From: an uncultured Bacteroidales bacterium
Lineage (GTDB): Bacteria; Bacteroidota; Bacteroidia; Bacteroidales; UBA932
Reading direction: 5' to 3'
Assembly: GCA_944325495.1 (NCBI GenBank)
Contig: CALVAD010000013.1
Coordinates: 1 to 39,236, forward strand
Length of the DNA: 39,236 bases
Shown: in pieces, positions 9,116 to 31,255 of the stretch
Layout of the letters: each line of letters starts with the position of its first letter
How positions within the stretch are numbered: position 1 is the first letter of the stretch
Made by a program: the position numbers and the translations under genes
The notes under the pieces: generated by a model
What the model was told of the DNA's origin: nothing
What the model saw: the letters and a program-made list of their open reading frames with translations, nothing else
Databases searched by the model: none

Positions 9116-9155
9116 TTTATGCAAAATTGGAATTGAATTTCAAAATTACATAAAT
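9116..9155. repeat. 40-bp direct repeat, copy 2 (upstream side of ATPase gene)
   Basis: This is the partner of 7928-7967 (37/40 identity). It abuts the ATPase start codon and carries the gene's -7 promoter element in its CAAAATTA segment. Confidence 0.85.
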
Positions 9156-9170
9156 CTTGGTGGATTCAAA
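9141..9170 (-). promoter_or_regulatory. Promoter of the DUF4143 ATPase gene
   Basis: On the minus strand TTTG (9170-9167), an 18-bp spacer and TAATTTTG (9148-9141) match the Bacteroidetes promoter. It predicts a leader of about 20 bases before the ATG at 9115. Confidence 0.62.
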
Positions 9171-9594
9171 AAATTCAGGCAAAAATCGGATTATCCAAGG
9201 AACATCAGCAAAGACCCCCTCCATAAGCGGAACACTCCTGTCCGGTCGCCGGGACGGCTCTAAAAAGTAAGGAACAGGACTGATGGTGGAATTTGCAATA
9301 CAGTCGGTTCCAGGAGGGTTTTCAGCAAAAACTCTGTGCCTGAACCGTATTTCGGAATATGACGCAGGCACATGAATATCTGCGGAGAATGCACTCTACG
9401 GCTATACGATGCAGTTTCTCCTGCTTCGTTTGTACCTCACTTTTTCGCATAGACGGATTCCGAAGGCCTCCGTTTCATGGCAGGGATGGAGAATCAGACC
9501 TCAAAATTCCCGATGTAATGATATGCAGGGGATATCCTTGCGGATATTCAATGATTTTTCCCAAAATCCATGTGAAATGCTGAGTGAGTTTTCC
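9171..9594. other. 424-bp stretch with no convincing gene
   Basis: Several short frames exist on both strands, but none has a promoter, family motif or plausible start. It may hold decayed sequence between the ATPase gene and the tRNA; I recognise nothing in it. Confidence 0.4.
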
Positions 9595-9602
9595 TATATT
9601 TG
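9595..9602 (+). promoter_or_regulatory. -7 promoter element of tRNA-Leu
   Basis: TATATTTG is an exact TAnnTTTG match, 12 bases upstream of the mature tRNA 5' end. The -33 element is weak. Confidence 0.55.
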
Positions 9603-9614
9603 CCATCTGAATCT

Positions 9615-9695
9615 GCGGGTGTGTTGTAATTGGTAGCCAAGCCAGACTTAGGATCTGGTGCCTCGTGCGTATGGGTTCGAGTCCCTTCACCCGCA
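9615..9695 (+). tRNA. tRNA-Leu (anticodon UAG)
   Basis: The acceptor stem GCGGGTG (9615-9621) pairs with CACCCGC (9688-9694), followed by discriminator A. The anticodon stem CCAGA/TCTGG holds the loop CTTAGGA with TAG at 9649-9651. A long variable arm (type II, as in leucine tRNAs) and the T loop GGTTCGAGTCC are present. The CCA end is not encoded. It reads CUN codons, mainly CUA and possibly others. The tRNA marks the border of an accessory stretch, but I found no copy of its 3' end nearby that would act as an attachment site. Confidence 0.93.
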
Positions 9696-9726
9696 CAAGA
9701 ATTTAATGTATAGCAACTTGACGACT

Positions 9727-9792
9727 ATGAAGAAAACTTTGGAGACAAGTTCCGGAGTGCGTATAGAATACGATGAAGAGATCTTCAAATGA
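9727..9792 (+). CDS. Possible 21-residue peptide between tRNA-Leu and methyltransferase gene
   Basis: The frame starts MKKTLETSSGVRIEYDEEIF and ends at TGA 9790-9792, directly abutting the methyltransferase stop on the other strand. Composition is protein-like (Glu/Lys-rich), but it is too short to classify. It could be a small gene, the truncated start of a lost gene, or chance. Confidence 0.22.
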   Translation: MKKTLETSSGVRIEYDEEIFK

Positions 9793-10812
9793 TCATGACT
9801 GTTGATGGAAACAGTTCGTGTAGTCAGCATGAATATTGATTTCGTCCGAGCGGCTGATGTCAATGCTGCCGAGCTCCTGTAACTGCATGCCGGTTTCCTG
9901 AGAGGTCATGACCTTGCATCCCAGGAAAGTGTTCTCATATTTCAGGAGCTTGCCTTCCTCCATATGCCGCCTGACGAATTCCAGATGCCTGTCCAGTCTT
10001 TCCTTTAGGATTCGGTTCGACTTTTCAACCGTATAGGATTCGATGTTGTCAAGAATGCAGGATTCCAATGCCCGGTCAATCTCGATGCCGATGCTGTTCC
10101 GTCCGTTTATGATTGCCGCTATGTTGGTCGTGCACAATCCGGCGAAGGGATCAAGAACCATGTCCCCATGCTGTGAATACATGTTTATCAGCCTGAAAGG
10201 AATGTCAAGCGGGAAGGAGCCGTTCCTTTCCCGTGTCCCGGAGCCGACGATATTCTGTTTCGTGCCTTTGATATCCCATACGTCGGAAAACCAGCAGTTG
10301 CGTTCTTCCCAGAAATAGCCGCTTTGACGTCTCGTGCTTTTTTCCTCGTCGGTGCGGTACATTCTTTTGCCGCCCTTCCTGAAAATCAGTATCCATTCGT
10401 GTTCGAGAGTCACATATGCGCCGCATGGGAGCATTCCGCTTCCCATGAATTTGTTCGGCGCGTTCGTCTGCTTTCTCCATAGGATGTTGGGAAGGTTGAC
10501 CAGCCCGAGCCCGGTGCAGTGCGATACTATGCGGGAACTGTTGTTGTAAAGGCGGAATTCATTGCCTACGGTCCTGGTGGCCTCGCCTATGTTGATACAC
10601 AGAAATCCTCCGCTTTTAAGTACGCGGAAACATTCGTTCCACACCTTGTCGAGTTCGGCGTGCATCAGTTCGAACGCCCTCATCGGCGCGTCCGGCAGGC
10701 ATTTGGCGATTTCCTGATTCATCGCGGCGAATGTAGCGTCCCACATCTCGATCATCGGATAGGGAGGAGAGGTGACAATCAGGTCTACGGAACTGGAGGC
10801 GAGCATCTCCAT
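9793..10812 (-). CDS. Orphan DNA methyltransferase (beta-class, TSPPY type)
   Basis: A 339-residue amino-methyltransferase with motifs in beta-class order: catalytic motif IV TSPPYP near the N-terminus (residues 14-19 from ATG 10812) and S-adenosylmethionine-binding motif I DPFAGLCTT in the C-terminal half. TSPPY is most common in N4-cytosine enzymes, though N6-adenine members exist. No restriction endonuclease is adjacent, so it is an orphan. Codons upstream of the ATG still look coding (DTVGNAQR) but run into TGA. A 7-bp tandem duplication at 10831-10844 has shifted the frame relative to a better start at 10846. The protein made now is probably about 11 residues shorter than the ancestor, with the catalytic motif intact. 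Confidence 0.87.
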   Translation of the reverse strand: MEMLASSSVDLIVTSPPYPMIEMWDATFAAMNQEIAKCLPDAPMRAFELMHAELDKVWNECFRVLKSGGFLCINIGEATRTVGNEFRLYNNSSRIVSHCTGLGLVNLPNILWRKQTNAPNKFMGSGMLPCGAYVTLEHEWILIFRKGGKRMYRTDEEKSTRRQSGYFWEERNCWFSDVWDIKGTKQNIVGSGTRERNGSFPLDIPFRLINMYSQHGDMVLDPFAGLCTTNIAAIINGRNSIGIEIDRALESCILDNIESYTVEKSNRILKERLDRHLEFVRRHMEEGKLLKYENTFLGCKVMTSQETGMQLQELGSIDISRSDEINIHADYTNCFHQQS

Positions 10813-10830
10813 CCGCTGTGCGTTGCCGAC

Positions 10831-10844
10831 TGTGTCCGGTGTCC
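10831..10844. repeat. 7-bp tandem duplication disrupting the methyltransferase 5' end
   Basis: Units TGTGTCC (10831-10837) and GGTGTCC (10838-10844) differ at one base. On the coding strand they lie right after the ATG at 10846. Removing either unit puts that ATG in frame and gives MDTVGNAQRMEMLA. Confidence 0.7.
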
Positions 10845-10886
10845 ATCAATTGCCGAAGTGCAGCCGTATAAATGGCGCGTCAGCGG

Positions 10887-10894
10887 CAAATATA
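10887..10894 (-). promoter_or_regulatory. -7 promoter element of the methyltransferase gene
   Basis: Minus strand TATATTTG, about 40 bases before the ATG at 10846. No good -33 element. It is back-to-back with the lysO promoter. Confidence 0.45.
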
Positions 10895-10907
10895 CGCAAA
10901 ATCATAG

Positions 10908-10939
10908 TTTGTCGGGAAATTGTATTGTTCCTATCTTTG
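10908..10939 (+). promoter_or_regulatory. Promoter of the split lysO genes
   Basis: TTTG (10908-10911), a 20-bp spacer and TATCTTTG (10932-10939) match the Bacteroidetes consensus. The predicted leader before ATG 10963 is about 17 bases. Confidence 0.7.
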
Positions 10940-10962
10940 CGGCCCGAAATTCAAGTGTGCTT

Positions 10963-11238
10963 ATGTTCTACGTTCTGCTGACCATGTTTGCGGGAGTCCT
11001 TGTCGGATGGTTGCTGAAAGGCTGGAAGCCGGTCGGGCTTTCAGGGAAGGCGGTGAGCGCCGTGATATGGGTGATGCTGTTCCTGCTCGGGGCGGAAATC
11101 GGCATGAACCGCGAGCTTCTGCGTTCGCTGTCGTCCATCGGCCTTCAGGCGTTGCTCTTCGCGGCGGCGGGAATCTGCGGAAGCGTCATCGCGTCCGTGC
11201 TGCTTTACAGACTGTTGTTCAGGAAAAAGGCGGAATGA
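10963..11238 (+). CDS. lysO: LysO-type lysine exporter, N-terminal subunit (DUF340)
   Basis: A 91-residue membrane protein with three predicted helices (about residues 2-18, 30-48 and 56-80). It corresponds to the N-terminal third of LysO/YbjE, which exports lysine across the inner membrane. Glu45 in the LGAEIGMN segment falls where LysO has its essential membrane acidic residue. The start ATG 10963 lies just behind a consensus promoter; earlier in-frame codons are antisense to the methyltransferase. It overlaps the next gene by four bases (ATGA), so translation is coupled. The family is split into two genes in many Bacteroidetes, so this is not a fresh break. Confidence 0.8.
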   Translation: MFYVLLTMFAGVLVGWLLKGWKPVGLSGKAVSAVIWVMLFLLGAEIGMNRELLRSLSSIGLQALLFAAAGICGSVIASVLLYRLLFRKKAE

Positions 11239-11864
11239 AAGGGACTCTCACGGTGCTTGCGATGTTCGCCCTCGGCTGCATTTCCGGAGCCTTGGGCATT
11301 CTGCCTCAGAGTCTCGCGGACGGAGGCCTGGCGAAGATCGTGCTCTATCTGCTGATGTTCCTGGTCGGAGTGAACATCGGCGGAAATCCCGAGCTTAAGA
11401 AGATATTCGGCAGTGTCGATCCGAAACTCCTTCTTCTGCCGCTGGCGTCGGTCTTCGGTACTCTTGCCGTCACGGCTCTCGTGAGCCTTGTCCTGCCGGG
11501 ATGGGGCATAGCAGATTGCCTTGCAGTAGGAAGCGGCATGGGCTATTATTCCCTTTCGTCGATTCTGATATCGGAATACAGGCAGATGGCTCTCGGGGCG
11601 CAACTTGCGGCGGAGCTCAGCACGATAGCCCTGCTCTCGAACGTGTTCCGCGAACTGTTCACGCTTGTCGCTTCGCCGTTTCTGGCCAGGAAGTTCGGCC
11701 CGTTCGCCCCGATAGCTTCGGCGGGGGCTACCGCGATGGACGTGTCCCTTCCGGTGATATTGCGCAGCTCGGGAGACAGTTTTCTCGCCGCCGCGGTGAT
11801 AAGCGGTGTCATCTGCGACTTCAGCGTGCCTCTGCTGGTTTCGTTCTTCTGCTCGCTGCCCTGA
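11235..11864 (+). CDS. lysO: LysO-type lysine exporter, C-terminal subunit (DUF340)
   Basis: A 209-residue membrane protein corresponding to the larger C-terminal part of LysO. Several membrane segments are visible, and conserved family stretches include FLVGVNIGGNPEL, GSGMGYYSLSSILISE, LLSNVFRELFT and ATAMDVSLPVILRSSG. It is expected to assemble with the preceding 91-residue subunit into one lysine exporter in the inner membrane. The ATG overlaps the previous stop (ATGA). It converges on the pectinesterase-like gene with only 27 bases between the stops. Confidence 0.85.
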   Translation: MKGTLTVLAMFALGCISGALGILPQSLADGGLAKIVLYLLMFLVGVNIGGNPELKKIFGSVDPKLLLLPLASVFGTLAVTALVSLVLPGWGIADCLAVGSGMGYYSLSSILISEYRQMALGAQLAAELSTIALLSNVFRELFTLVASPFLARKFGPFAPIASAGATAMDVSLPVILRSSGDSFLAAAVISGVICDFSVPLLVSFFCSLP

Positions 11865-20827: not shown

Positions 20828-21775
20828 ATGAAAAGGACAGCCATCATTCTTCTGTCGCTGCTGGTTGCGCTCGGAGCTTCCAAGGAGCCGACTCTTGAGT
20901 ATATTGCGAAGTATTCCGATCTCGCGGTCAGCGAGATGAAGCGTACCGGAGTTCCCGCGAGCATCACTTTGGCCCAGGGTATCCTGGAGTCGAATTCCGG
21001 GCAGTCCCGGCTTGCGGTCAGGGGCAACAATCATTTCGGCATCAAGTGCCACAATGACTGGAACGGAAGGACCATGAGACTCGACGACGACGCGAGGCGC
21101 GAATGCTTCCGCGTCTATCCCAGCGTGAAAGACTCGTATCGCGACCATTCGGACTTCCTGCGCTACAGGGACAGGTACAAGCCGCTCTTCGACCTGAAGC
21201 CTGATGACTACAAGGGATGGGCGAGAGGCCTGAAGAAGGCCGGCTACGCCACAGACCCCTCATACGCGAACAAGCTCATCGCCCTGATCGAGGAGTACGA
21301 GCTCTACCGTTTCGACGGGAAGGTGAAGGTGGAGCGGGAGCCACCTCTGAAGGCGGAGGCCCCGCGCGAACTGCCGCCCGACAATGTCGAGCGGAATTAC
21401 AGCGAGACAGTCAACATAAGTCTGCAACGTAGTGTATACGAGACCAACGGCGTTCCGTTCATCTATTCGATGGAAGGCGAAAGCTGGCGCTCCATCGCCT
21501 CGGCCAACGGGCTGTTCCTGCGGGAGCTGCTCAGGTTCAACGACATGTCCGCGGAATCTCCGCTGGAGCCCGGTACGACGGTATATCTTGCGCGCAAGAA
21601 GGCCAGGGGAACGAAGGAAGTGCCCAAGTATGTGGTCGGAAGGGACGGCGAGACCTTATGGGAGATCTCCCAGCGTTTCGGCATAAGATTGTCGTCTCTC
21701 GCCAGGCTGAACCCGCAACTGGCGGACACGCCGCTTCAGGAAGGTGACACCGTTCAGCTGAGGAAGGAGAAATGA
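20828..21775 (+). CDS. Secreted glucosaminidase-type peptidoglycan hydrolase with LysM domains
   Basis: A 315-residue exported cell-wall hydrolase. The signal peptide covers residues 1-18. Residues about 25-165 form a GH73 (FlgJ/Auto-like) N-acetylglucosaminidase domain with likely catalytic Glu54 in AQGILESNSGQS and the conserved NNHFGIKCH. Two LysM-like modules follow (about 205-255 and 265-312; GETLWEISQRFGIRLSSLARLNP is clear) and target the enzyme to peptidoglycan. It overlaps mltG by four bases, so two glycan-strand-cutting enzymes are translationally coupled. Confidence 0.9.
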   Translation: MKRTAIILLSLLVALGASKEPTLEYIAKYSDLAVSEMKRTGVPASITLAQGILESNSGQSRLAVRGNNHFGIKCHNDWNGRTMRLDDDARRECFRVYPSVKDSYRDHSDFLRYRDRYKPLFDLKPDDYKGWARGLKKAGYATDPSYANKLIALIEEYELYRFDGKVKVEREPPLKAEAPRELPPDNVERNYSETVNISLQRSVYETNGVPFIYSMEGESWRSIASANGLFLRELLRFNDMSAESPLEPGTTVYLARKKARGTKEVPKYVVGRDGETLWEISQRFGIRLSSLARLNPQLADTPLQEGDTVQLRKEK

Positions 21776-22812
21776 GAGCCGGAACAAAATCCTTCATGGT
21801 GCTGGCTGCGGCCGTGCTCGCCGTCTGTTGTGCGGTGGCGGCCGGGCGGTGGCTGCGGGACAACAAGCTGCCGAATTTCAGCCGCACGGCGGAAATATTC
21901 ATATACCCCGGGACGACGGCCGATTCCGCGATGGCCATGATATCCGCTCAGGCCGGAGTGCGCAGCGGCCGCAGTCTTGCGCGGACTTTCAGGAAGAAGC
22001 AGGTGGAAGCCTACATCACTCCGGGGCATTATACCGTGTCTCCGGGAAATTCAAGCGTGTATGTGGCCAGGATGCTCAACAACGGCTGGCAGACGCCGGT
22101 CCGCGTGACGCTTTCGGGAAACCTGAGGCTGAAGGGGAACATCGCCGCCAAGATCAGCAGCCAGCTTCTTGCGGATTCGGTTTCGGTCCGTCATGCGCTG
22201 GACGATGACGCGCTGCTGTCGCGCTACGGTTTCAGCTCCTCCACGGTGTTCGCCCTGCTCATGCCTGCGACATACGAGATGTACTGGACTGCGACTCCCG
22301 AAGACTTCCTTGACAGGCAGAAGGAGGCCTACGACGCCTTCTGGACAGCTTCCAACGATTCAAAGGCGGCGGAGCTGGGCCTTACGCGCATGCAGGTCTC
22401 GACTCTTGCCTCGATAGTGGACGCCGAGACCAACCACGAGGAGGAGATGCCGCTGATCGCGGGCGTCTATCTCAACCGTCTCAGGCTGGGCATGCCGCTC
22501 CAGGCGGACCCTACGGTCGCATTCTGCTTCGACTACGGCATCACCCGCGTGCTGAACAAGCACCTTCAGGTGGATTCTCCATATAACACCTACCGTCACG
22601 CCGGACTGCCTCCGGGGCCCATCTGCGTGCCCTGCCGGGCCGCGCTCGAGGCCGTGCTCAATCCGGACTACGGCGGCGAACCGGGCCGCGGGAATCTCTT
22701 CTTCTGCGCGGACGCCGATTTCTCGGGTACGCATGTGTTCGCCCGCACCCTCAGGGAGCATAACCGCAACGCCGCGGCCTATCGTCGTGCGCTGAACGCC
22801 CGCTCCCGCTGA
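21772..22812 (+). CDS. mltG: Endolytic peptidoglycan transglycosylase MltG
   Basis: A 346-residue YceG/MltG protein that cleaves nascent glycan strands and helps set strand length. One N-terminal membrane anchor (residues about 7-23) is followed by a periplasmic LysM-like region and the catalytic domain. The predicted catalytic Glu219 lies in SIVDAETNHEEEMPLIAGVY, matching E. coli Glu218. The signatures LGMPLQADPTV and PYNTYRHAGLPPGPI are intact. ATG 21772 overlaps the previous stop. Confidence 0.95.
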   Translation: MRAGTKSFMVLAAAVLAVCCAVAAGRWLRDNKLPNFSRTAEIFIYPGTTADSAMAMISAQAGVRSGRSLARTFRKKQVEAYITPGHYTVSPGNSSVYVARMLNNGWQTPVRVTLSGNLRLKGNIAAKISSQLLADSVSVRHALDDDALLSRYGFSSSTVFALLMPATYEMYWTATPEDFLDRQKEAYDAFWTASNDSKAAELGLTRMQVSTLASIVDAETNHEEEMPLIAGVYLNRLRLGMPLQADPTVAFCFDYGITRVLNKHLQVDSPYNTYRHAGLPPGPICVPCRAALEAVLNPDYGGEPGRGNLFFCADADFSGTHVFARTLREHNRNAAAYRRALNARSR

Positions 22813-23743
22813 ATGTTGCCGTTACGGCGGACCTGTTACTGTAATGGCATATCAGCCGTCGCCCTGCTGCAGCTGCCTGATCAGTTGCATCGGATTTGCC
22901 TTCAGTTGCGGTGGATTTGCAATCCGGGTCCTATCTGCCGCCTGCGGCCATAAGCATCCCTCGCAGGCGAGAAGAGCCTGCTCGTGGATGATATGGCCGT
23001 CCGGCCTCGCCGTTCAGACAGATTTGGAATTCGCTGCCCTGATCCAGCCGCAGACGGAGCTCGCCCTCAGGCAGTAAGAACCACCGCACAGCCCTATACT
23101 GCCTGAGGCCGACTTCGCCGCGGCAGTGGTCCCTGACAGATGAAGAAGGCACATGACATAGGAGCGGCATATTTTGAAAAAACGGCCCTGCAGGCACCTG
23201 TAAAACGGTTTTCGTCGAACCTATTGCTCCTATATCGGCCAAATTTCGAAGACATGTGAGCATTGTATCTTTGTAAGAGATTTATAATCAAATATTTTGG
23301 TAAATCCGGCGCTCCTGCCTCAGTTGAGCCGGATTTGCAATCTACCATAATCATGACAGCAGATTGCAAAACTGCTGAACTTGCATAATCGCAATGCCTC
23401 TCGTTGAAAGGGATATACAATCACCGACGTAGACGGCGGTAGAGCTTTCTCTGAACATGAGCAGCCGCCGACGACACATAGTGATGTTTGGCGGGAAAGG
23501 CGTGGTCGAGGAATCATAGGGGCTGAAATTTTGGTTGTGCAGGAGCAATTCGCAATCGGTTAGCAATCAGTGAGTTCTAATTCGTGACCGCCCGGCCTTG
23601 CACTTTTGGAAGCCGAAGGCTGTGCATAGGATTTGCCGAAAATGGCCTCTCAAGGTTTGGTAAGGCCGTTTTCGGAATGGTGGCTGCACAAGCATAATTT
23701 TACTGCCGGCGAGGCATACTCTGCCGTAGGGCTCCGAATTGGA
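22813..23743. other. 930-bp gene-poor zone
   Basis: No frame here has a recognisable family, signal or promoter-start arrangement. It contains the motif GGATTTGCAAT twice (near 22915 and 23331), a lone -7 element at 23266 and three hairpins between 23302 and 23470. It probably contains decayed sequence and possibly a non-coding RNA. Confidence 0.45.
23266..23470 (+). ncRNA. Weak candidate non-coding RNA with three hairpins
   Basis: A TATCTTTG element (23266-23273) is followed by three inverted repeats. These are AAATCCGGC/GCCGGATTT (23302-23336), TTTGCAATCT/AGATTGCAAA (23334-23370, overlapping the first and so possibly a switch) and CGGCGG/CCGCCG (23434-23470). The -33 element is weak and no terminator is clear. 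Confidence 0.25.
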
Positions 23744-23862
23744 TTATTCTGTCTGACCGAATTTGTCTTCGTATGCTTGCCTACGTTCTTCGGCAGTGAG
23801 ATGAGTCATCAGGACCATGGCCAGGTCCCGGCATTCTATGAAAAGCTCGTTGTTGCAACGTA
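23744..23862 (-). pseudogene. Relic 1: 3' end of the HTH-like membrane-protein gene
   Basis: Minus strand bases encode NNELFIECRDLAMVLMTHL then TAEERRQAYEDKFGQTE and a stop, the C-terminal tail of the intact gene at 24659-25486. DNA identity is 95 of 103 bases with no gap (23753-23855 against 24668-24770). Nothing upstream of this tail is conserved, so only the last 35 or so codons remain. Confidence 0.85.
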
Positions 23863-23931
23863 AAAACTGAATGATTGTCGACCTGCAGCAAGTTATATTT
23901 ATTGGATTTCGAATTTTTTAGTGTGAAAAAT

Positions 23932-23961
23932 TTTGAATTTCGGAATAATTCGGTACTTTTG
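23932..23961 (+). promoter_or_regulatory. Promoter of the higBA module
   Basis: TTTG (23932-23935), an 18-bp spacer and TACTTTTG (23954-23961). The leader is about 8-10 bases, so the toxin mRNA is nearly leaderless. The TTTTGAATTTCGGAATAATT stretch between the elements is a plausible HigA operator. Confidence 0.65.
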
Positions 23962-23975
23962 TAAAAAAGTGAGTG

Positions 23976-24275
23976 ATGAGGATAGTGTCGCACAGAAGGC
24001 TCAGGGAGTTTTATGAAAGCAACGGAAGGGAAGATGCGAAGGTGGCCTTGGATCGATGGTATCAGATAGCGGAAGAAGCGCAATGGGCGACCTTGTCGGA
24101 CATCAGGCTTGATTTTCCGTCAGTGGATTATGTGGGAAATCAGCATTATGTGTTCAACATCAAGGGTAACCGGTACAGGCTGGTCGTTGTGATCAAATTC
24201 CGGATGGGATATGTCTTCATCAGATTTGTGGGGACTCACGGCGAGTATGATATGATAGATTGTGCTACAATATAG
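23976..24275 (+). CDS. higB: HigB-type toxin (mRNA interferase)
   Basis: A 99-residue basic protein of the HigB/RelE-like type II toxin family, expected to cleave mRNA on the ribosome. Family features are the N-terminal helix pair MRIVSHRRLREFYES, the DIRLDFPSVDYV segment, and the beta-strand core NIKGNRYRLVVVIKFRMGYVFIRFVGTHGEYD. The ATG at 23976 is preferred over an adjoining GTG. The antitoxin gene follows after 11 bases, toxin first, as is usual for higBA. It is flanked by the relic and intact copies of one gene tail. Confidence 0.9.
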   Translation: MRIVSHRRLREFYESNGREDAKVALDRWYQIAEEAQWATLSDIRLDFPSVDYVGNQHYVFNIKGNRYRLVVVIKFRMGYVFIRFVGTHGEYDMIDCATI

Positions 24276-24286
24276 AATATTGAAAG

Positions 24287-24646
24287 ATGAATATAACTAA
24301 ATCACAATACGAGTTCGCTTTGTCAAAGATCGAGGAGCTGCTGCCTCTGGTGCCGGAAGATGCTTCCGCAGAAGACAAGGACGCCGTGGAACTTTCCATT
24401 CTGTCCGATGTGGTCATCGAATATGAAAAGGAGCATTTCCCGATAGGCAAGCCGACGGTAGCCCAGCTCGTGGAACTGGCTCTGGAGGAAAAGAACATGA
24501 CCCAGAAGCAGCTTGCGGAGGAAATCGGAGTCAGCCCCTCCCGTATCAGCGACTATGTCAACGGAAGAGCCGAACCGACCTTGAAAATAGCCAGTTCCCT
24601 TTGCAAGGTGCTTGATATCCAGCCGTCGGCGATGCTGGGGTTGTGA
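24287..24646 (+). CDS. higA: HigA-type antitoxin (XRE-family HTH)
   Basis: A 119-residue antitoxin. The N-terminal half (residues 1-65, acidic) is probably the toxin-contact region. Residues about 70-117 form an XRE helix-turn-helix with MTQKQLAEEIGVSPSRISDY and LKIASSLCKVLDI. It should neutralise HigB and repress the module's promoter. It ends 12 bases before the convergent stop of the HTH-like membrane gene. Confidence 0.92.
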   Translation: MNITKSQYEFALSKIEELLPLVPEDASAEDKDAVELSILSDVVIEYEKEHFPIGKPTVAQLVELALEEKNMTQKQLAEEIGVSPSRISDYVNGRAEPTLKIASSLCKVLDIQPSAMLGL

Positions 24647-24658
24647 TCACTTTTGTTT

Positions 24659-25486
24659 TCAGTTTTCCTGACCGAATTTGTCTTCGTAAGCTTGCCTGCG
24701 TTCCTCGGAGGTGAGATGGGTCATCAGGATCATGGCCAGGTCCCGGCATTCTATGAAAAGCGCGTTGTTGTGTATGGTGCGTAGGGTGTCGTTGTCTGGA
24801 AAGGTTTCGGATATTCTTCTGCTGATATAGGGCTTCATATAGTCGAAGGCTATACGGAAATATGCAGAATCGCATTTCTCGACATACTGGTACAGCGGCA
24901 GTTCATTGCGCATGGCCATCACCGAATCCGTCATGTGCTTTACTTTCATGATGCAGTCGGACCGTATTTCTTGATACTTTGCTTCGTCAATTTCCGCCTG
25001 TGTTCTCACCGGAGAAGACTTGATGATTGAGATGGTATCACGGATGAGAGTGCGGGTGCCGTTTGGGACATCTCCTCTGTATGCAGACATCATGTTGTCA
25101 ATGCGGGCCGACAGAAGGATGCAGACGACGGTAAGCACAATGCTGACAGCTGTGAGGAACAGGATCAGCTTTTTTTGCTTATGTATCTTGGAATGTGATG
25201 TGCCTCCGTCGGACTCTGAAGGTCGGAAGTTCCTGCAGAAGTCGCTCCATCCTGCGTATCCTACATAACGGGAGAGGATGGACAGGGTGGTGGCACTCGG
25301 TTCGGCATCGTATTTCACATATCCGAAAACGCGTTTCAAGGTTGAGGGACTTACCGTTTCGGATATGCCCTGCTGTATGGCCATGGAAAGCGTATCGAAA
25401 TCGGCTGCGGCCTCGACGGTCCGGCCGAATTTCCTGACGACTTCCTTCTTCAGGTTTTCGATATGTCTTTTTTTGTCTTGTGTCAT
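24659..25486 (-). CDS. HTH-like single-pass membrane protein, unknown function
   Basis: A 275-residue protein I cannot assign to a named family. Residues 1-80 look like a DNA-binding or death-fold-like helical domain: basic and helical, with SPSTLKRVFGYVKYDAEPS and TLSILSRYVGYAGWSDFC reminiscent of helix-turn-helix regulators. A linker leads to one membrane helix (about 107-127, LILFLTAVSIVLTVVCILL), followed by a helical C-terminal domain ending YEDKFGQEN. Topology suggests a cytoplasmic N-terminus and a periplasmic C-terminus, a possible membrane-bound regulator. Degraded copies of its tail lie at 23744 and 30320. The start ATG 25486 follows a near-consensus TAGATTTA. Confidence 0.75.
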   Translation of the reverse strand: MTQDKKRHIENLKKEVVRKFGRTVEAAADFDTLSMAIQQGISETVSPSTLKRVFGYVKYDAEPSATTLSILSRYVGYAGWSDFCRNFRPSESDGGTSHSKIHKQKKLILFLTAVSIVLTVVCILLSARIDNMMSAYRGDVPNGTRTLIRDTISIIKSSPVRTQAEIDEAKYQEIRSDCIMKVKHMTDSVMAMRNELPLYQYVEKCDSAYFRIAFDYMKPYISRRISETFPDNDTLRTIHNNALFIECRDLAMILMTHLTSEERRQAYEDKFGQEN

Positions 25487-25605
25487 TTTCTGCTTTGTCC
25501 TGATCCGACCGGCGGAAAAACGGATGTAAATCTACGTTTTTTCTCCCAATAATCATGTGCTGGAAGCGTGGCAGGCGGTTTGAACTGAATTGAGCCGATA
25601 TGAAA

Positions 25606-25636
25606 TTTGATATTAAACCACCACTATGTACTTTTG
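25606..25636 (+). promoter_or_regulatory. Promoter 1 upstream of the candidate structured RNA
   Basis: TTTG (25606-25609), a 19-bp spacer and TACTTTTG (25629-25636), a full consensus match. Confidence 0.6.
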
Positions 25637-25686
25637 CGAAGAATGAAAAGTACAAGCAGTCCGTATTGCGAAGCCAATAAAAACAT

Positions 25687-25694
25687 TATCTTTG
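25687..25694 (+). promoter_or_regulatory. Promoter 2 (-7 element) of the candidate structured RNA
   Basis: TATCTTTG, with TTG at 25665-25667 about 19 bases upstream as a partial -33 element. It predicts a transcript starting near 25701. Confidence 0.5.
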
Positions 25695-25700
25695 TAGAAC

Positions 25701-25880
25701 CGGTGAAGGCCGGCGGCCGGACAAGGAGGTCCGGAGAAAAGATAATACTGATTAGTGAATCTTAGGATTCCCTGGACAACAAAACCGCCAATTTTGTCCC
25801 GGCTCCATGAGCCGGAAAACCCAAGGGAAAACAAGAGCCACGGTCTGCATAGTCGTATGTGCGGACTGCTTGTTTTTCAT
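25701..25880 (+). ncRNA. Candidate structured RNA of about 180 bases, no known family recognised
   Basis: Between tandem promoters and the nuclease gene lies a segment dense in hairpins and without a credible reading frame. CCGG/CCGG is near the 5' end. CCGGAC/GTCCGG encloses AAGGAG. CCGGCTC/GAGCCGG has a 3-base loop (25799-25815). A 3' hairpin pairs AAAACAAG (25828-25835) with CTTGTTTT (25869-25876), has an inner GTC..GAC stem and ends in T residues. It could be an independent small RNA, or a riboswitch or attenuator leader of the downstream operon. It does not match tmRNA, RNase P, SRP or cobalamin riboswitch signatures as far as I can judge. Confidence 0.45.
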
Positions 25881-25898
25881 TATGGGTTATGGCGCTTG

Positions 25899-25946
25899 GC
25901 GGTGCCTGTTGTTCTGATGGAAGACGGCAGGTTCCGCACTTTTTTA
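25899..25946 (+). terminator. Terminator-like hairpin before the nuclease gene
   Basis: GCGGTGCCTG (25899-25908) pairs with CAGGTTCCGC (25928-25937) with one central mismatch, followed by ACTTTTTT. It lies 13 bases before the ATG at 25959, so it could end the upstream RNA or act as an attenuator of the operon. Confidence 0.5.
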
Positions 25947-25958
25947 TGACCATACATA

Positions 25959-27035
25959 ATGAATGACGATATGAACAGCAGACCGAATTTATTCCAAATC
26001 GCGACATCTGAACTTTCGCAGGACGCGTTTTTCTCGTGGCTCATGCAGTGGGCAGATCCGTCCAACATTCAGGAAGATCCGACACTTTGCGCAATCGGAC
26101 AGGATTTTGTCCGTTTACTTCTCGGTAAAAGCCGAGACTGTGATGATATCATGGAAATAGATAAAGTCGTTGTCCGAAGGCAGGTTGCCATTATGCAGGA
26201 CGGGCCGCGAAAACGGAAGGGCTTCATGGATATCTGGGTGGAAGTCAATGACCGCTTTCTGTTAGTTATCGAGGATAAGACAGGTACGGCCGAGCATTCC
26301 GGGCAGCTGGATTTCTATAAGGAAACAGCGGAGAAACACTGCACTGGGAAGAATATGCTTCCGTCTTTGATTTACATCAAAACACAGGATGAGACAAAAT
26401 CCAGGATAAATGTCGTTGAGGAGAAGGGCTTTCGGTTCGTGAGCAGAAAAGATTTGCTGCTTTTTTTCAAAGAACATCCTGTTGACAATGACATTTACGG
26501 AGATTTCGTTTCAAATCTTGACCGTATAGAGGCATCGTCCGCATCATTCCGGACTCGCCCGATAGGGGAATGGTCATGGGGAAGCTGGTGCGGTTTCCTG
26601 TCCTATCTGGATGAAGTAAGGGATAAGAACGACTGGGGAGAATGGAAATATGTCGCCAATCCGTCGGGAGGTTTTCTCGGAGCATGTTGGCATTTCCTTA
26701 AATGGAGAGATTACATGGTTTATCTTCAGATCGAACAGAATATCCATGAGAACAAATTCGGGACTTGCAGGTTATGTTTCAAGATTCAGCATGTCAAGGA
26801 AGAGAATTTGAAAACAAGGAATGAATGGGCGAAAATCATATTAGCACATGCGGCGGAATGCGGTTTCAAGGAAATCCGGCCGGCAAAATGCCGTAAGGGC
26901 GAAAACATGACGGTGGCTGTCATTGATCGCACGGACTGGCTCGGCCCGGACGACGGCGTCGTCGATCTGGAGCAGGTGGTCGCAAGGCTTCATAGATACG
27001 AGAAGTTTCTTGATGAGTGTGCGGAAGCCATATGA
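25959..27035 (+). CDS. PD-(D/E)XK nuclease superfamily protein
   Basis: A 358-residue protein whose N-terminal half carries a PD-(D/E)XK core of the PDDEXK_4 type: Asp91 in GFMDIWVEV and Glu105-Asp-Lys107 in LLVIEDKTGT, with preceding helix FFSWLMQWADPSN. The C-terminal half (about 190-355) has no motif I know. Homologues are hypothetical nuclease-like proteins common in accessory regions, and a defence or DNA-processing role is plausible but unproven. It is the first gene of an AT-rich same-strand run and is preceded by a candidate structured RNA and a terminator-like hairpin. The lipoprotein gene follows after 27 bases. Confidence 0.78.
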   Translation: MNDDMNSRPNLFQIATSELSQDAFFSWLMQWADPSNIQEDPTLCAIGQDFVRLLLGKSRDCDDIMEIDKVVVRRQVAIMQDGPRKRKGFMDIWVEVNDRFLLVIEDKTGTAEHSGQLDFYKETAEKHCTGKNMLPSLIYIKTQDETKSRINVVEEKGFRFVSRKDLLLFFKEHPVDNDIYGDFVSNLDRIEASSASFRTRPIGEWSWGSWCGFLSYLDEVRDKNDWGEWKYVANPSGGFLGACWHFLKWRDYMVYLQIEQNIHENKFGTCRLCFKIQHVKEENLKTRNEWAKIILAHAAECGFKEIRPAKCRKGENMTVAVIDRTDWLGPDDGVVDLEQVVARLHRYEKFLDECAEAI

Positions 27036-27062
27036 TAGAAAAGTCAATTTAATTTTCAGATT

Positions 27063-27707
27063 ATGAAAAATTCTATTTCGATTTCCACAAGGAAAAGCGC
27101 ATTTGCAGTTTGTAGTCTGCTTATGGTGCTGACTGTAAGTTCATGTAAACCATCTGTTGACACGGATATATGGGAGAACGGGATCCGTCCAGAAATGGAG
27201 AGTCATAAAGTATATCTGATGATTCAAGAACAGCTTGATGAATATTGCTTTACTGAAATGGATGTCAACCTGATCGATCCATCTCCGGAATCACACATAG
27301 TAGATGCAATAGATTATGTTGAATCTTATATTGCAGATTCGCTGGATTCGTATTCTGACATACGATATCTTTACGATGCACTGTCGCAAAAAGATGAAGC
27401 AGGAGAGCTCAATATTGAATATAGCGCTGAAGAGCAAGTAGCGAAGGCCTGGTTCAGTGCAATGGGGATTAGTCTGGGTGATTGGACAAAAGAATACGCA
27501 TTGCAAATCGCTCGATATATTCAAGATGAATTTGAAGACATTTCTATTGAGCTGGATACTCCTGAGTATGTAAGAAAGACGACGGACCGAATTACTTATT
27601 CAGTCTATTGTCCAACATATAATGAGACTTATACGCTGACATGTGATCGCAATTCTGGAGATTTTTCGTGGGATCTGACACCAATAGAATTATCAACCTC
27701 AAAATAA
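27063..27707 (+). CDS. Lipoprotein of unknown function (1 of 3 in the run)
   Basis: A 214-residue protein with a lipoprotein signal (lipobox VSSC, Cys28). The mature part is acidic (many Asp/Glu/Ser/Tyr) and mostly helical early (residues 40-125), ending in a short beta-rich part with RITYSVYCPTYNETYTLTC. No family recognised. Base composition is clearly more AT-rich than the core genes, and it ends 6 bases before the next lipoprotein gene, indicating co-transcription. Confidence 0.75.
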   Translation: MKNSISISTRKSAFAVCSLLMVLTVSSCKPSVDTDIWENGIRPEMESHKVYLMIQEQLDEYCFTEMDVNLIDPSPESHIVDAIDYVESYIADSLDSYSDIRYLYDALSQKDEAGELNIEYSAEEQVAKAWFSAMGISLGDWTKEYALQIARYIQDEFEDISIELDTPEYVRKTTDRITYSVYCPTYNETYTLTCDRNSGDFSWDLTPIELSTSK

Positions 27708-27713
27708 ATAAAA

Positions 27714-28487
27714 ATGAAAAAATTTTTAATTGGCGCGATTTGCATAGTGGTGCTGTGCAGTTGTAGTTCGAAGAAGAAAGAGGCCGAATACTGGAAAGGC
27801 TGGGTGGCAATGAATGCATATGGCTACTCTCTTCAAAAAGATTATAAGGAGCATTATAACTATCACATGGAATTTTCCCCATTGTTTTCCGAGAATGAAA
27901 CTACTGTTGTTCTTGATGGTTATTGGGGAATCTCATGGCTTGAAAAGGATTTGACTAATTTGGCTTCCAAAATGTATGAAGATATGATAGATGAAGTCAT
28001 ATCAAGCTATTCTTCTTATGTTGAGGACAGAATGAAATCAGTATCTACAAAAGGAATAATTGCAGAAGCCATCGATAATTGTCTCACCGATCATACGAAG
28101 AGTAGCAGTGGCGGGGAAAAATATTACAATGTATATCAGGACCTGCCGGACGAGGCGGGCGAAAAGTATAAAGGACGCATGGGAATTGTATCCTACAGTA
28201 TTGATTGGCTTGTCAATGATGAGAACAATCTCAATAAATTGAATACAAATCTTATCGGATTTTGTGGAAATTATAAGGATTTCTATGAGTTTGTAATGAA
28301 ATCAGTGTCTGTCATTGACATTGAAAAAGCCGGGAAACGGTCGGGTGCGAAGATGTATGATGTCACATACAAGATATCATACGGCAATTCATCAGGTTAC
28401 GCCCTATGCAGGATTCTGATAAACAAGAAAGATTCGGAAATAGAGCTTGTCGACAAAAGCGAAAATCTTCTGGATTTGACTTATTAA
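27714..28487 (+). CDS. Lipoprotein of unknown function (2 of 3)
   Basis: A 257-residue protein with a short lipoprotein signal (VLCSC, Cys near residue 17) followed by a lysine patch (SSKKKE). The mature part includes the aromatic-rich GYWGISWLEKDL and a final beta-rich domain DVTYKISYGNSSGYALCRILI. No known family. It starts 6 bases after the first lipoprotein gene and ends 10 bases before the third. AT-rich. Confidence 0.74.
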   Translation: MKKFLIGAICIVVLCSCSSKKKEAEYWKGWVAMNAYGYSLQKDYKEHYNYHMEFSPLFSENETTVVLDGYWGISWLEKDLTNLASKMYEDMIDEVISSYSSYVEDRMKSVSTKGIIAEAIDNCLTDHTKSSSGGEKYYNVYQDLPDEAGEKYKGRMGIVSYSIDWLVNDENNLNKLNTNLIGFCGNYKDFYEFVMKSVSVIDIEKAGKRSGAKMYDVTYKISYGNSSGYALCRILINKKDSEIELVDKSENLLDLTY

Positions 28488-28497
28488 TCTTTTTATT

Positions 28498-29574
28498 ATG
28501 AAAACCAAATTGTTGCAATGTGGCGTCATCGCATTGTCAGCGGTACTTCTGGCCGGATGTTCTTCAGAACAGAAAGCTGAGGCGCCTGTAACGGACAGTG
28601 TTTTATTGTATTATGGAAGTCTTATGTCCGATGCGGCAGGAACCGGATATGAAGCTGAGAGTTTCGCCGCATTATATGGATTGCCGAAAGAAATTTTCCC
28701 CGTAAAGCCGTTTGACGGGATGTCCGGAAAGGTCAAAGGAGTCATCGTCCGGACTGAAGACCAATACGGAGAGACTGATCCGGACATAATAGTCTATAAT
28801 GAAAACGGATTCAAGACAAAGGCTGAATATACCGATAAGTATGACCGTTATGAATACGAATTCTCCATGAATTGGACAAGTGACGATAAACTTGTAGAAG
28901 AAAGCAGACTGTTGCATGAAGATGCTGAGGGCGGATATGATGCGGTATATTCTATTGACGGTATTCTTGACCGTTCAGCTGAAGTGAGCTTTGACGGAAA
29001 CAAAAGACCTGTCAACAGATGCATATATTGGCATACGGAGTATGAAGAGGACGAATCAGGCGATGAATACCTCGTGCCTGCCAAGAAGCCGCAACTGTAT
29101 TCTGAGGAGAATTGGAAATATGATGCTTATGGAAATATCGTAGAATACGCAATATCGTTGTGGGGAAGAACCCCCGACAAATGGTCAATGACATACTCGG
29201 AAGATGGCAAATCCATGCTCGCTGCCGTTCATGTCCATTCTGACGGAACGGAAGAAAAAATAAGATACAGATATTATGACGGTATGCCCGAGAAACCAGC
29301 TGAAATAACTTTTTACGATGAAAATGGTAAAAGGCAAAAACGGCACTGGTTATCTTATGATGACGCAGGTAATCTTGTAGAAGCCGTGATTGAAAACACT
29401 GGTGAATTTTCACAGGAGATATTCGGAGCAGGAGGATTGAGATTAAAATATTCTACTCCGACTCATAATAGTACGGTATCTTATGAATTTGATGCCATTG
29501 GAAATTGGACAAAACGGACTGAAAATTCAGATTATGGGACTTCTGTAGAAGAAAGACAAATAACTTATTATTAA
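28498..29574 (+). CDS. Lipoprotein with YD/RHS-like repeats (3 of 3)
   Basis: A 358-residue protein with a clear lipobox (LLAGC, Cys21). The C-terminal two thirds contain degenerate repeats of the form Y/F-D-x-x-G-N: YDAYGNIVEYA, YDDAGNLVEAV and FDAIGNWTKRT, each followed by a strand ending in Tyr. This is the pattern of YD/RHS-like beta-sheet repeats found in Bacteroidales surface lipoproteins. It lacks an RHS core motif and a toxin tip, so I do not call it an RHS toxin. It probably faces the periplasm or cell surface. Confidence 0.76.
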   Translation: MKTKLLQCGVIALSAVLLAGCSSEQKAEAPVTDSVLLYYGSLMSDAAGTGYEAESFAALYGLPKEIFPVKPFDGMSGKVKGVIVRTEDQYGETDPDIIVYNENGFKTKAEYTDKYDRYEYEFSMNWTSDDKLVEESRLLHEDAEGGYDAVYSIDGILDRSAEVSFDGNKRPVNRCIYWHTEYEEDESGDEYLVPAKKPQLYSEENWKYDAYGNIVEYAISLWGRTPDKWSMTYSEDGKSMLAAVHVHSDGTEEKIRYRYYDGMPEKPAEITFYDENGKRQKRHWLSYDDAGNLVEAVIENTGEFSQEIFGAGGLRLKYSTPTHNSTVSYEFDAIGNWTKRTENSDYGTSVEERQITYY

Positions 29575-29588
29575 TCAATTGAATTATC

Positions 29589-29717
29589 ATGGAAGAAAAC
29601 AGGCTAAGGAACAATTGGAAAACTTATTTGATTCCAATTACTTTTATCATGTTGCTGATTGATTTGGGATTAGCAATAGCAGTTATTGCTAAAATTGGGA
29701 ACTTCATCGTCTTTTGA
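29589..29717 (+). CDS. Small membrane protein, 42 residues
   Basis: ATG 29589 to TGA 29715-29717. The sequence begins MEENRLRNNWKTYLIPITF and continues with one strongly hydrophobic helix (about residues 15-37) and a very short tail. It lies 14 bases after the third lipoprotein gene and 23 bases before the next small membrane gene, all on one strand. No family recognised. Confidence 0.55.
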   Translation: MEENRLRNNWKTYLIPITFIMLLIDLGLAIAVIAKIGNFIVF

Positions 29718-29740
29718 CAGCATTAAATTGTTTTGAAAAA

Positions 29741-29929
29741 ATGGAAGATTTAAAAAAGATAATTAGAAATTTTGATTGGACCAATCTTGTTCCAGTGTTA
29801 TTTGTCATATCATTAGTGTTGCTCATCCTTTTAAGTATAACCGTCGGGCAGATGAATGCCGCTCTGTCTTCACTTGAGGATTTTGTCTTAAATGGTTTGG
29901 ATGAAGCAATTGATGCGATCGACTGGTAA
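29741..29929 (+). CDS. Small membrane protein, 62 residues
   Basis: ATG 29741 starts MEDLKKIIRNFDWTNLVPVL. One membrane helix (about residues 17-37) is followed by an amphipathic acidic tail (LEDFVLNGLDEAIDAIDW). An in-frame TTG at 29714 overlaps the previous stop, but ATG is preferred. The next gene follows after 7 bases. The function is unknown; small size and charge are reminiscent of holin-like or regulatory membrane peptides, but that is speculation. Confidence 0.6.
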   Translation: MEDLKKIIRNFDWTNLVPVLFVISLVLLILLSITVGQMNAALSSLEDFVLNGLDEAIDAIDW

Positions 29930-29936
29930 TTAAAAA

Positions 29937-30293
29937 ATGAACAAAATGAATAAGGTAGTTAAAATATTAAGCATAGTTGGAACCGTTCTATTTATAGTAT
30001 TGGTTATTTTGACATTTTCAATAGAAATCGACACCGATACGCTTGAATCTTTGGGCTTGGTATCACAACTTGGTGGGGGCTATAATGTCGAAGATACTTT
30101 CTATGGTGTATATGGAATTGCAGTAATTGCAAGTATATTTGGATTGGTGCTGTCTGTCTGTGGAATCTTTATTCCATACAATACCAAAAAAGACAAGACT
30201 AAGGAATTGCTTGAACTTGGCCAACTGAAAGAGAAAGGGATTTTGAATGACGAAGAATTTGAGGCTAAGAAACGTAAATTATTAGCAAAGTGA
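29937..30293 (+). CDS. Membrane protein with C-terminal SHOCT domain
   Basis: A 118-residue protein with two membrane helices (about 9-29 and 58-78) and a C-terminal SHOCT module (about 88-117: LLELGQLKEKGILNDEEFEA, then KKRKLLAK). SHOCT is a short oligomerisation domain common at the ends of bacterial membrane proteins. It is the last gene of the AT-rich run; relic 3 of the HTH-like gene tail starts about 25 bases downstream. Confidence 0.78.
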   Translation: MNKMNKVVKILSIVGTVLFIVLVILTFSIEIDTDTLESLGLVSQLGGGYNVEDTFYGVYGIAVIASIFGLVLSVCGIFIPYNTKKDKTKELLELGQLKEKGILNDEEFEAKKRKLLAK

Positions 30294-30319
30294 TTTGTTG
30301 CAAAACTGAAATAGTCTGT

Positions 30320-30394
30320 CTGACCGAACTTGTCCTCGTATGTCCGTTTGTGTCCCTATGCAGTGATATGGATCATCATGACTATAGTCACTGC
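30320..30394 (-). pseudogene. Relic 3: decayed 3' end of the HTH-like membrane-protein gene
   Basis: The minus strand gives MMIHITA, an in-frame stop, then GHKRTYEDKFGQTD, matching the LMTHLTAEERRQAYEDKFGQ tail. It is more diverged than relic 1 and shares with it the extra GTCTGACCG context (QT rather than QE), so it is closer to relic 1 than to the intact gene. Confidence 0.72.
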
Positions 30395-30468
30395 TGAATC
30401 CGTTATCTCCGCCGGACAGAAAAGGCAACCGGATTACAAATCATAAGTGGTTGAAATCTGACTGTGTG

Positions 30469-30600
30469 TTCAGAGATTAGAATCAGTCGAACTTCAATAT
30501 TTTATTGAAGCGCCCAGCGCAAGCTGAACACCCTGATCGCCTTTGACAGCGTGAGGTGATTTGATAAGATGCTGCGACTCAATCGACTCCAATCTCTGAA
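30469..30600. repeat. 132-bp element with inverted ends, MITE-like
   Basis: TTCAGAGATT..AGTCGA at the left end pairs with TCGACT..AATCTCTGAA at the right end (a 4-base length difference inside), enclosing an AT hairpin at 30492-30510. No target-site duplication is visible and there is no second copy in the window. Confidence 0.35.
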
Positions 30601-30697
30601 TCCGCAATCAGATTTGAATGACGCACCTCTGATACATATCGCCGTGTGCTGGAAGCCCGCCCCCGCTGAAGTTTCGTCTGATCTTGTCGGGAGATGT

Positions 30698-31255
30698 CTA
30701 TTTCCTGATCTGAATCGGAACCGCCTTGTATCCGAGGCGCTGGAGCTCGATGCCGGCGCCTATTCTGTATAGTACCGAATAGGAGCGCGTGAGCACGAAG
30801 AAACCGCGCTCGGTCTGGGTCTCGATGCCCTCGTGGCGCAGCAGTCCGAGGGTGGCCGTCGCGCAGCTGAGCAGGGTGTCCGAGATTCTTTTCGCCTCCT
30901 TGCCGTCGAGCCTGAGGCCCAGCAGGTCGCGCAGCACATGCTCGTCCATGTCGTCCCAGCCGCGTGAACCGTAGAACGAGGAGTAGGAGTCGTTCTTGTG
31001 CGCCTGCCAGTCCACGTCCCACCAGTGAGCCACGCCGATTCCGAGGAAAGCGGCCCAGGAGATTGCGGCTTCCGGATACTGGTTGAAGTTCTCCACCGCG
31101 TCGGCTACATAGTCCTTTATGTAGTCGTCCCATTTGCCGTCGATGTCGTCGGACTGCAGCAGCGTGTCGCCGACGAGCCCGGCTCCGCGGCATATCTTCA
31201 GGAGGCCGTTTTCGAGAATGGTCTCGAATGAATCATAGAATGCACTGTCTGTCAT
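30698..31255 (-). CDS. Conserved hypothetical protein downstream of relA
   Basis: A 185-residue, tryptophan- and aspartate-rich protein (GIGVAHWWDVDWQAHKND, GSRGWDDMDEHVL) with no signal peptide or membrane segment. I do not recognise a characterised family. It starts 13 bases after the RelA/SpoT stop, so the two are probably co-transcribed and it may act in stress physiology; that is inference from context only. The start ATG 31255 is the first plausible one. Confidence 0.75.
   Translation of the reverse strand: MTDSAFYDSFETILENGLLKICRGAGLVGDTLLQSDDIDGKWDDYIKDYVADAVENFNQYPEAAISWAAFLGIGVAHWWDVDWQAHKNDSYSSFYGSRGWDDMDEHVLRDLLGLRLDGKEAKRISDTLLSCATATLGLLRHEGIETQTERGFFVLTRSYSVLYRIGAGIELQRLGYKAVPIQIRK

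Follow-up and report, generated by a model that had tools for sequence, protein, structure and literature searches.

Integron gene cassettes have direct repeats around their cargo. The other described systems that come closest to the locus considered here are (i) integrase-free chromosomal hotspots, where cargo varies at shared conserved intervals (PMC5635113); (ii) the HipAB island of Shewanella, where a toxin–antitoxin pair at the island end may oppose loss (PMC8978831); and (iii) the anti-phage toxin–antitoxin system PD-Lambda-2 of PADLOC. We analysed a 39,236-nt stretch (hereafter the window; positions 1–39,236 of contig CALVAD010000013.1, assembly GCA_944325495.1) of an uncultured Bacteroidales bacterium, whose draft genome belongs to Candidatus Cryptobacteroides, comprises 2.0 Mb in 61 contigs and is 89% complete. 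In the window, the 3′ tail of a gene for a protein with a helix–turn–helix (HTH)-like domain and a membrane-type helix (hereafter the HTH-membrane gene) occurs three times around a HigBA toxin–antitoxin pair, a structured RNA and a run of nuclease and lipoprotein-like genes. Comparison with a genus set of 400 genomes (one per species, labelled G plus a number; all draft assemblies) suggests that the tails are probably left-end scars of collapsed accessory island units and not sites of a cassette system.

Three copies of one gene tail

The intact HTH-membrane gene lies at 24659–25486 on the minus strand. Its tail (24668–24770) and relic 1 (23753–23855, minus strand, the last ~35 codons) are identical at 95 of 103 positions without gaps and in the same orientation, exactly as counted in the preliminary description. 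The eight differences are spread over eight codons, five of them silent, and the reading frame of relic 1 still gives NNELFIECRDLAMVLMTHLTAEERRQAYEDKFGQTE and a stop. The decayed third tail, previously placed at 30320–30394, is also real: its best ungapped span (30304–30390, minus strand; relic 3), which includes ~16 bp of left flank, matches relic 1 at 63/87 and the intact tail at 50/71 positions, whereas the next-best ungapped places on both strands of the window reach 40/87 and 36/71, and the similarity is therefore not due to chance. All three tails have one orientation. Relics 1 and 3 have in common a 3′ end (GGTCAGACAGA.TA) as well as a small number of adjacent bases, neither of which the intact copy shares. 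The last two codons and the flank of the intact gene differ from those of the relics, ending 12 bp short of HigA, and would suit a deletion junction. No further tail copy was found elsewhere in the genome by DNA and protein searches, which also missed relic 3, so that equally decayed copies could exist. Among 61 genomes (own included) searched with the tail DNA, those other than the own genome gave short matches only (G028, G017 and G015), none of which was accepted; the G028 match was compared directly and not accepted as a tail.

The arrangement of genes around the tails was confirmed as well. HigBA separates relic 1 from the intact gene and is thus on the outer side of that gene, with the HigB toxin (23976–24275, plus strand; Pfam HigB_toxin, E 3.5e-31) followed by the HTH_3 antitoxin HigA (24287–24646, plus strand; E 9.1e-17), which is a type II toxin–antitoxin layout on the Pfam evidence. 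The stretch from the intact gene to relic 3 contains the RNA (25640–25950, plus strand), a PDDEXK_4 nuclease gene, lipoprotein-like genes and a SHOCT gene. No visible integrase had been noted, and matches to PF00589 (tyrosine recombinase) occur at five places in the genome, none of them on the contig (transposases and other recombinases were not profile-searched). Neither HigBA nor the RNA with its nuclease and lipoprotein genes, the two contents between the tails, is an integrase-bearing element by the same PF00589 search.

Island units and their probable collapse

G316 and G076 have the complete unit: first the HTH-membrane gene on the minus strand, then the structured RNA on the plus strand and a cargo operon, with HigBA as the last element. 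The lipoprotein-to-SHOCT block of the window (27695–30295) is 83% identical to that of G316 over 2.6 kb. It had been suggested that related genomes be searched for different cargo between successive tails; instead, G225, G182, G316 and G076 each have one tail per intact gene, at different chromosomal sites.

How such a unit can be lost is evident from the close pair G206 and G316. Two blocks align between them, i.e. 5621–6507/7093–7968 (94%) and 6524–11105/17257–21843 (90%), in a shared neighbourhood where adjoining blocks are 89 to 94% identical and sequence further out is 73% identical. A stretch of 9,288 bp in G316, from inside the gene tail to inside HigB, has no counterpart in G206, which retains ~66 bp of the gene tail, 16 bp of other sequence and HigB minus its first ~12 codons. 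Because fragments of both end genes remain, we read the gap as a loss from G206 and not as a gain by G316; so read, the scar directly shows a deletion of gene body, RNA and cargo. Relic 1 and HigBA in the window have the same layout. At another site, beside a cysS-like gene, G134 contains a tail relic (66-base alignment; none of 500 shuffles scores as high) followed by the apparent C-terminus of a G316-type cargo gene (by eye), an ATPase-like gene and HigBA, while G372 has HigBA alone at that site. This looks like a decay series in which HigBA is often the last part to go. Tail length, counted from the conserved GQ codons, varies: relic 1 has 103 bp, relic 3 about 71 bp, G206 about 40 bp and G134 about 66 bp; the end points thus differ between relics and no constant recombination point exists in the tail.

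These observations bear on the preliminary description of the locus as a cassette-like product of repeated insertion at, or recombination through, one gene tail. That the tails stand at junctions of accessory-DNA rearrangement holds. Neither a cassette array nor insertion or recombination at the tail is supported, given the single tails of four other genomes and the one-off scars of G206 and G134 with their different end points. An integron-like cassette system with the tail as its site-specific recombination site would account for different cargo bounded by direct repeats of one sequence in the window, yet the variable end points, the single tails in intact units and the lack of a PF00589 recombinase on the contig largely refute it, and we regard it as very improbable.

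The island unit, with the tail of its HTH-membrane gene outermost on the left, then the RNA, the cargo operon and HigBA, occupies several chromosomal sites. We propose that an internal deletion starting in the left-end gene would collapse it and leave the 3′ tail behind. HigBA at the other end would often survive longest, perhaps through its own addiction. By analogy with G206, relic 1 and HigBA would represent one collapsed unit; the intact gene, RNA and nuclease/lipoprotein operon would be a second unit that lost its own HigBA; and relic 3 would be the scar of an older copy. The copies may have become neighbours by tandem duplication or by repeated acquisition. In the sister species G225, relics of the HigA 3′ end (about 20 bp), of a conserved 185-aa gene and of its neighbour lie to the left of the flank, and on a second contig HigA directly abuts the 3′ end of the intact 185-aa gene. 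These relics suggest a duplication-type junction and would fit a history in which the whole block was duplicated in tandem and then partly lost.

Simple tandem duplication of just the HTH-membrane gene, with subsequent decay of the extra copies, was also considered. The gene encodes a protein of 275 aa which, in the seven sequences compared, has a conserved N-terminal helical HTH-like domain, a membrane-type helix and a C-terminal helical domain (predicted structure: mean pLDDT, the predicted local distance difference test score, 78; pTM, the predicted template-modelling score, 0.43; helix 101–137 and helices within 163–271). It belongs to a gene family, with N-terminal homologues in 16 of the 61 genomes (own included) and a second C-terminal homologue in both G316 and G076, which speaks for this reading. 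The extra tails outside the window, however, adjoin HigBA and not gene tandems, and the G206 scar removes the whole unit interior; we therefore consider this explanation rather unlikely. C-terminal matches occur in 8 of the 400 genomes, own included, with clear homologues in G225, G182, G316 and G076. Three weak matches (E about 0.007) were found in G206, G229 and G005; the first was accepted because of its position beside HigBA, and the other two were not. The protein has no match in Pfam, PADLOC or NCBIfam, none at E ≤ 0.001 in a fold search and none among plasmid and phage records; the closest named protein record found is from Candidatus Cryptobacteroides merdipullorum (86% in the best segment).

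Several points weigh against collapse of units. No RNA or cargo remnant was found between relic 1 and HigB, so that the deletion at this point is something we infer. HigBA, which has matches in 61 of the 400 genomes, need not have come with the unit because it also exists without tail or unit (e.g. after MltG in G199). Relic 1 matches the G225 tail at 100/103 positions, and at the eight sites where relic 1 and the intact tail differ G225 agrees with relic 1 at five and with the intact tail at three; the G182 tail is equally far from both (78/103 each), and these comparisons give no clear sequence polarity for the pair. The contigs of G225 also end inside the region.

Alternatively, one homologous crossover in the gene tail could have brought in a circle carrying a tail copy and HigBA; this would yield flank, tail fragment, HigBA and complete gene, i.e. 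exactly the order in the window. G225 resembles the state before such an insertion: on one of its contigs the left flank runs straight into a single tail and the gene to which it belongs, after which come the RNA and the first part of the nuclease gene, and no HigBA interrupts the series. The left flank of the window (23595–23752, no strand assigned) is the one contiguous with the single intact gene there (130/158 for the flank alone; 88% by blastn for 23595–23855 against G225:C108). In G316, moreover, an unrelated direct repeat of 64 bp (95%) stands on either side of HigBA. Such repeats are, however, only weakly in excess at HigBA loci: of 25 loci in 24 genomes, four lacked a flank and were left out, and 3 of the 21 testable loci (G000, G316 and G026) have direct repeats across HigBA at E ≤ 1e-3 compared to 13 of 300 random positions. 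A fourth locus (G200) reaches E 0.024 only, and the G000 repeat bears no relation to that of G316. Given so weak an excess, we rejected the idea that HigBA moves as a module and duplicates its target; insertion of that kind is therefore at best occasional. Circle insertion would also leave relic 3 and the scars of G206 and G134 unexplained. As a general account it appears unlikely, less so than duplication of the gene alone, and single-crossover insertion is a possible explanation, and the main rival, for relic 1 alone. Collapse of island units is the reading that we prefer. The repeated tails are real and tell something of the biology of the locus; most likely they are remnants of island copies that collapsed, not sites of a cassette system.

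The 64-bp repeat of G316 (L102:16624–16687 and G316:C18:17903–17966) brackets an IS30-like relic together with HigBA and corresponds to the sequence preceding a UvrA-like gene. An integrase-like open reading frame (ORF) lies about 5 kb to the left of the HTH-membrane gene in G316 (seen by eye; integrases were not profile-searched in the relatives).

The chromosomal neighbours of the locus are an MltG/YceG gene on the left (21772–22812, plus strand; Pfam YceG, E 1.1e-67) and the 185-aa gene on the right (30698–31255, minus strand), which is present in 54 of 101 genus genomes. The distance between them (22813–30697 in the window) is ~106 kb in G089 and ~85 kb in G121, which makes the window interval a junction of chromosomal rearrangement as well; the synteny of the two neighbours revealed no simple empty site. 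Elsewhere in the genus, genomes that share core-gene neighbours differ in the accessory genes between them, as at a hotspot: gene clusters show this for G316/G206/G124, G316/G074, G076/G138 and G350/G372, the sites compared above show it for G134/G372, and G182/G325 was judged by eye. Genes that we take to be Rel/SpoT-like, UvrA, Hsp20, cysS, pyrG, cysK, mdh and P-type ATPase, as well as the IS30 relic, the G316 integrase-like ORF, the G134 ATPase-like gene and the label ‘lipoprotein-like’, were assigned by sequence recognition alone.

The structured RNA and its cargo

The RNA block at 25640–25950 has a putative promoter of the TAnnTTTG type, assigned by sequence recognition, and ends in a U-run. 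The segment 25693–25950 folds far better than its shuffles (z −5.7), and no Rfam 15 family matches it by covariance models. A pattern search allowing up to one mismatch recovered 16 copies in 13 of the 400 genus genomes; a fourteenth genome (G067) was removed as the rest of the RNA is missing there. In an order-level set of 393 genomes, own genome among them, the RNA was not found outside the own genome with up to one mismatch in the core, a pattern that diverged relatives would escape. Four core matches in other genera were rejected with neither of the checked neighbouring motifs present, and viral contigs contain no exact match to the core.

We then aligned 15 of the 16 copies, leaving out that of G325 because it looked the same as the G344 RNA. 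Both sides have changed in 16 of 68 base pairs, a count reached by 16 of 500 shuffles; the both-side changes total 50 cells, reached by none of 500; and the covariation score is above every shuffle. For further pair types, the count does not rise above the shuffles (146 of 500 reach it). In the alignment 88.7% of cells pair, compared to 41–43% with the partners slid, a test somewhat favoured because the structure was derived from one of the aligned sequences. By our reading of the alignment, a strand of the 3′ half could pair with the sequence immediately before the terminal U-run or, alternatively, inside an internal hairpin, as attenuators do.

In the window the RNA is followed by six genes on the plus strand: a PD-(D/E)XK nuclease-like protein (25959–27035; Pfam PDDEXK_4, E 4.2e-5; weak PADLOC match to PDC-S26, E 2.2e-5), three lipoprotein-like proteins, of which the first (27063–27707) is an ORF without a Pfam match, the second (27714–28487, cluster C4) has homologues 3′ of the RNA in G316, G182 and G076 and the third (28498–29574, cluster C25) has one in G316, a small membrane-like protein (29741–29929, cluster C26) also with a homologue in G316, and a SHOCT-domain protein (29937–30293; Pfam SHOCT, E 1.3e-6). 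Across the genus, several conserved chromosomal sites carry copies of the RNA; to the left stands the HTH-membrane gene or another gene, and the operon to the right varies. PADLOC models match JukA, PDC-M40B and PDC-M09A among the neighbours, while several other cargo genes have no PADLOC match. In G092 (L126:7066–7812 and 8394–11646), a JukA-like gene lies to the left of the RNA and PDC-M40B- and PDC-M09A-like genes to the right; the same clusters of genes are present in G344 and G325. A defence role of the cargo is plausible because these neighbours match anti-phage models. One RNA-linked operon contains an ATP-grasp peptide maturase-like gene, below the NCBIfam cut-offs, and near it is encoded a cargo protein of 793 aa that has a ribosomal L7/L12 C-terminal-like domain (L103:15525–17906). 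Two RNA copies stand in tandem at one site in G316 (L103:10692–11326).

Upstream of the RNA promoter, the stretch 25656–25665 (GCAGTCCGTA; GCAGTCCGCA in G350) is the reverse complement of the RNA-internal stretch 25860–25869, with one base off in the window. It may be an operator or the remnant of an element end.

In a bolder reading, which we hold to be rather doubtful, the RNA of ~250 nt and not the tail would be the constant part of the islands, standing before interchangeable cargo, some of it with matches to anti-phage models, and would act as a shared transcription attenuator or a trans-acting partner; the grounds for an attenuator are the complementary stretches seen in the alignment. 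The conserved block may also provide the homology by which left genes and cargo are shuffled.

Comparison with known systems

Of these results, the island family built around the RNA is more novel than the tails. Among the best few records that a literature search with general terms ranked, we recognized no description of these islands or of the RNA, which does not prove that none exists. The locus illustrates that repeats of a gene tail can be misread as recombination sites. As a case of island decay, the G206/G316 pair shows how a scar forms and that a toxin–antitoxin remnant can outlast the cargo. The recurring RNA offers a DNA handle for finding more such islands and raises the question of whether several unrelated defence-like operons of this gut genus, which has been little studied, are under the control of a single RNA.

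Like the cargo of integron cassettes, that of the window is flanked by direct repeats; unlike integrons, the window contig has no integrase and the repeats no constant crossover point. The window HigB, the HigBA partner that was scanned with PADLOC, matches PD-Lambda-2_A (E 5e-34); the likeness is to the toxin alone. The HipAB island of Shewanella is similar in that a toxin–antitoxin pair stands at the island end; in our units a stabilizing effect is presumed, and neither excision nor an integrase was seen (PMC8978831). The likeness to the chromosomal hotspots (PMC5635113) is that cargo varies at shared conserved intervals with no tyrosine integrase on the window contig, whereas the units described here have one constant structured RNA in common and leave scars made of a gene tail.

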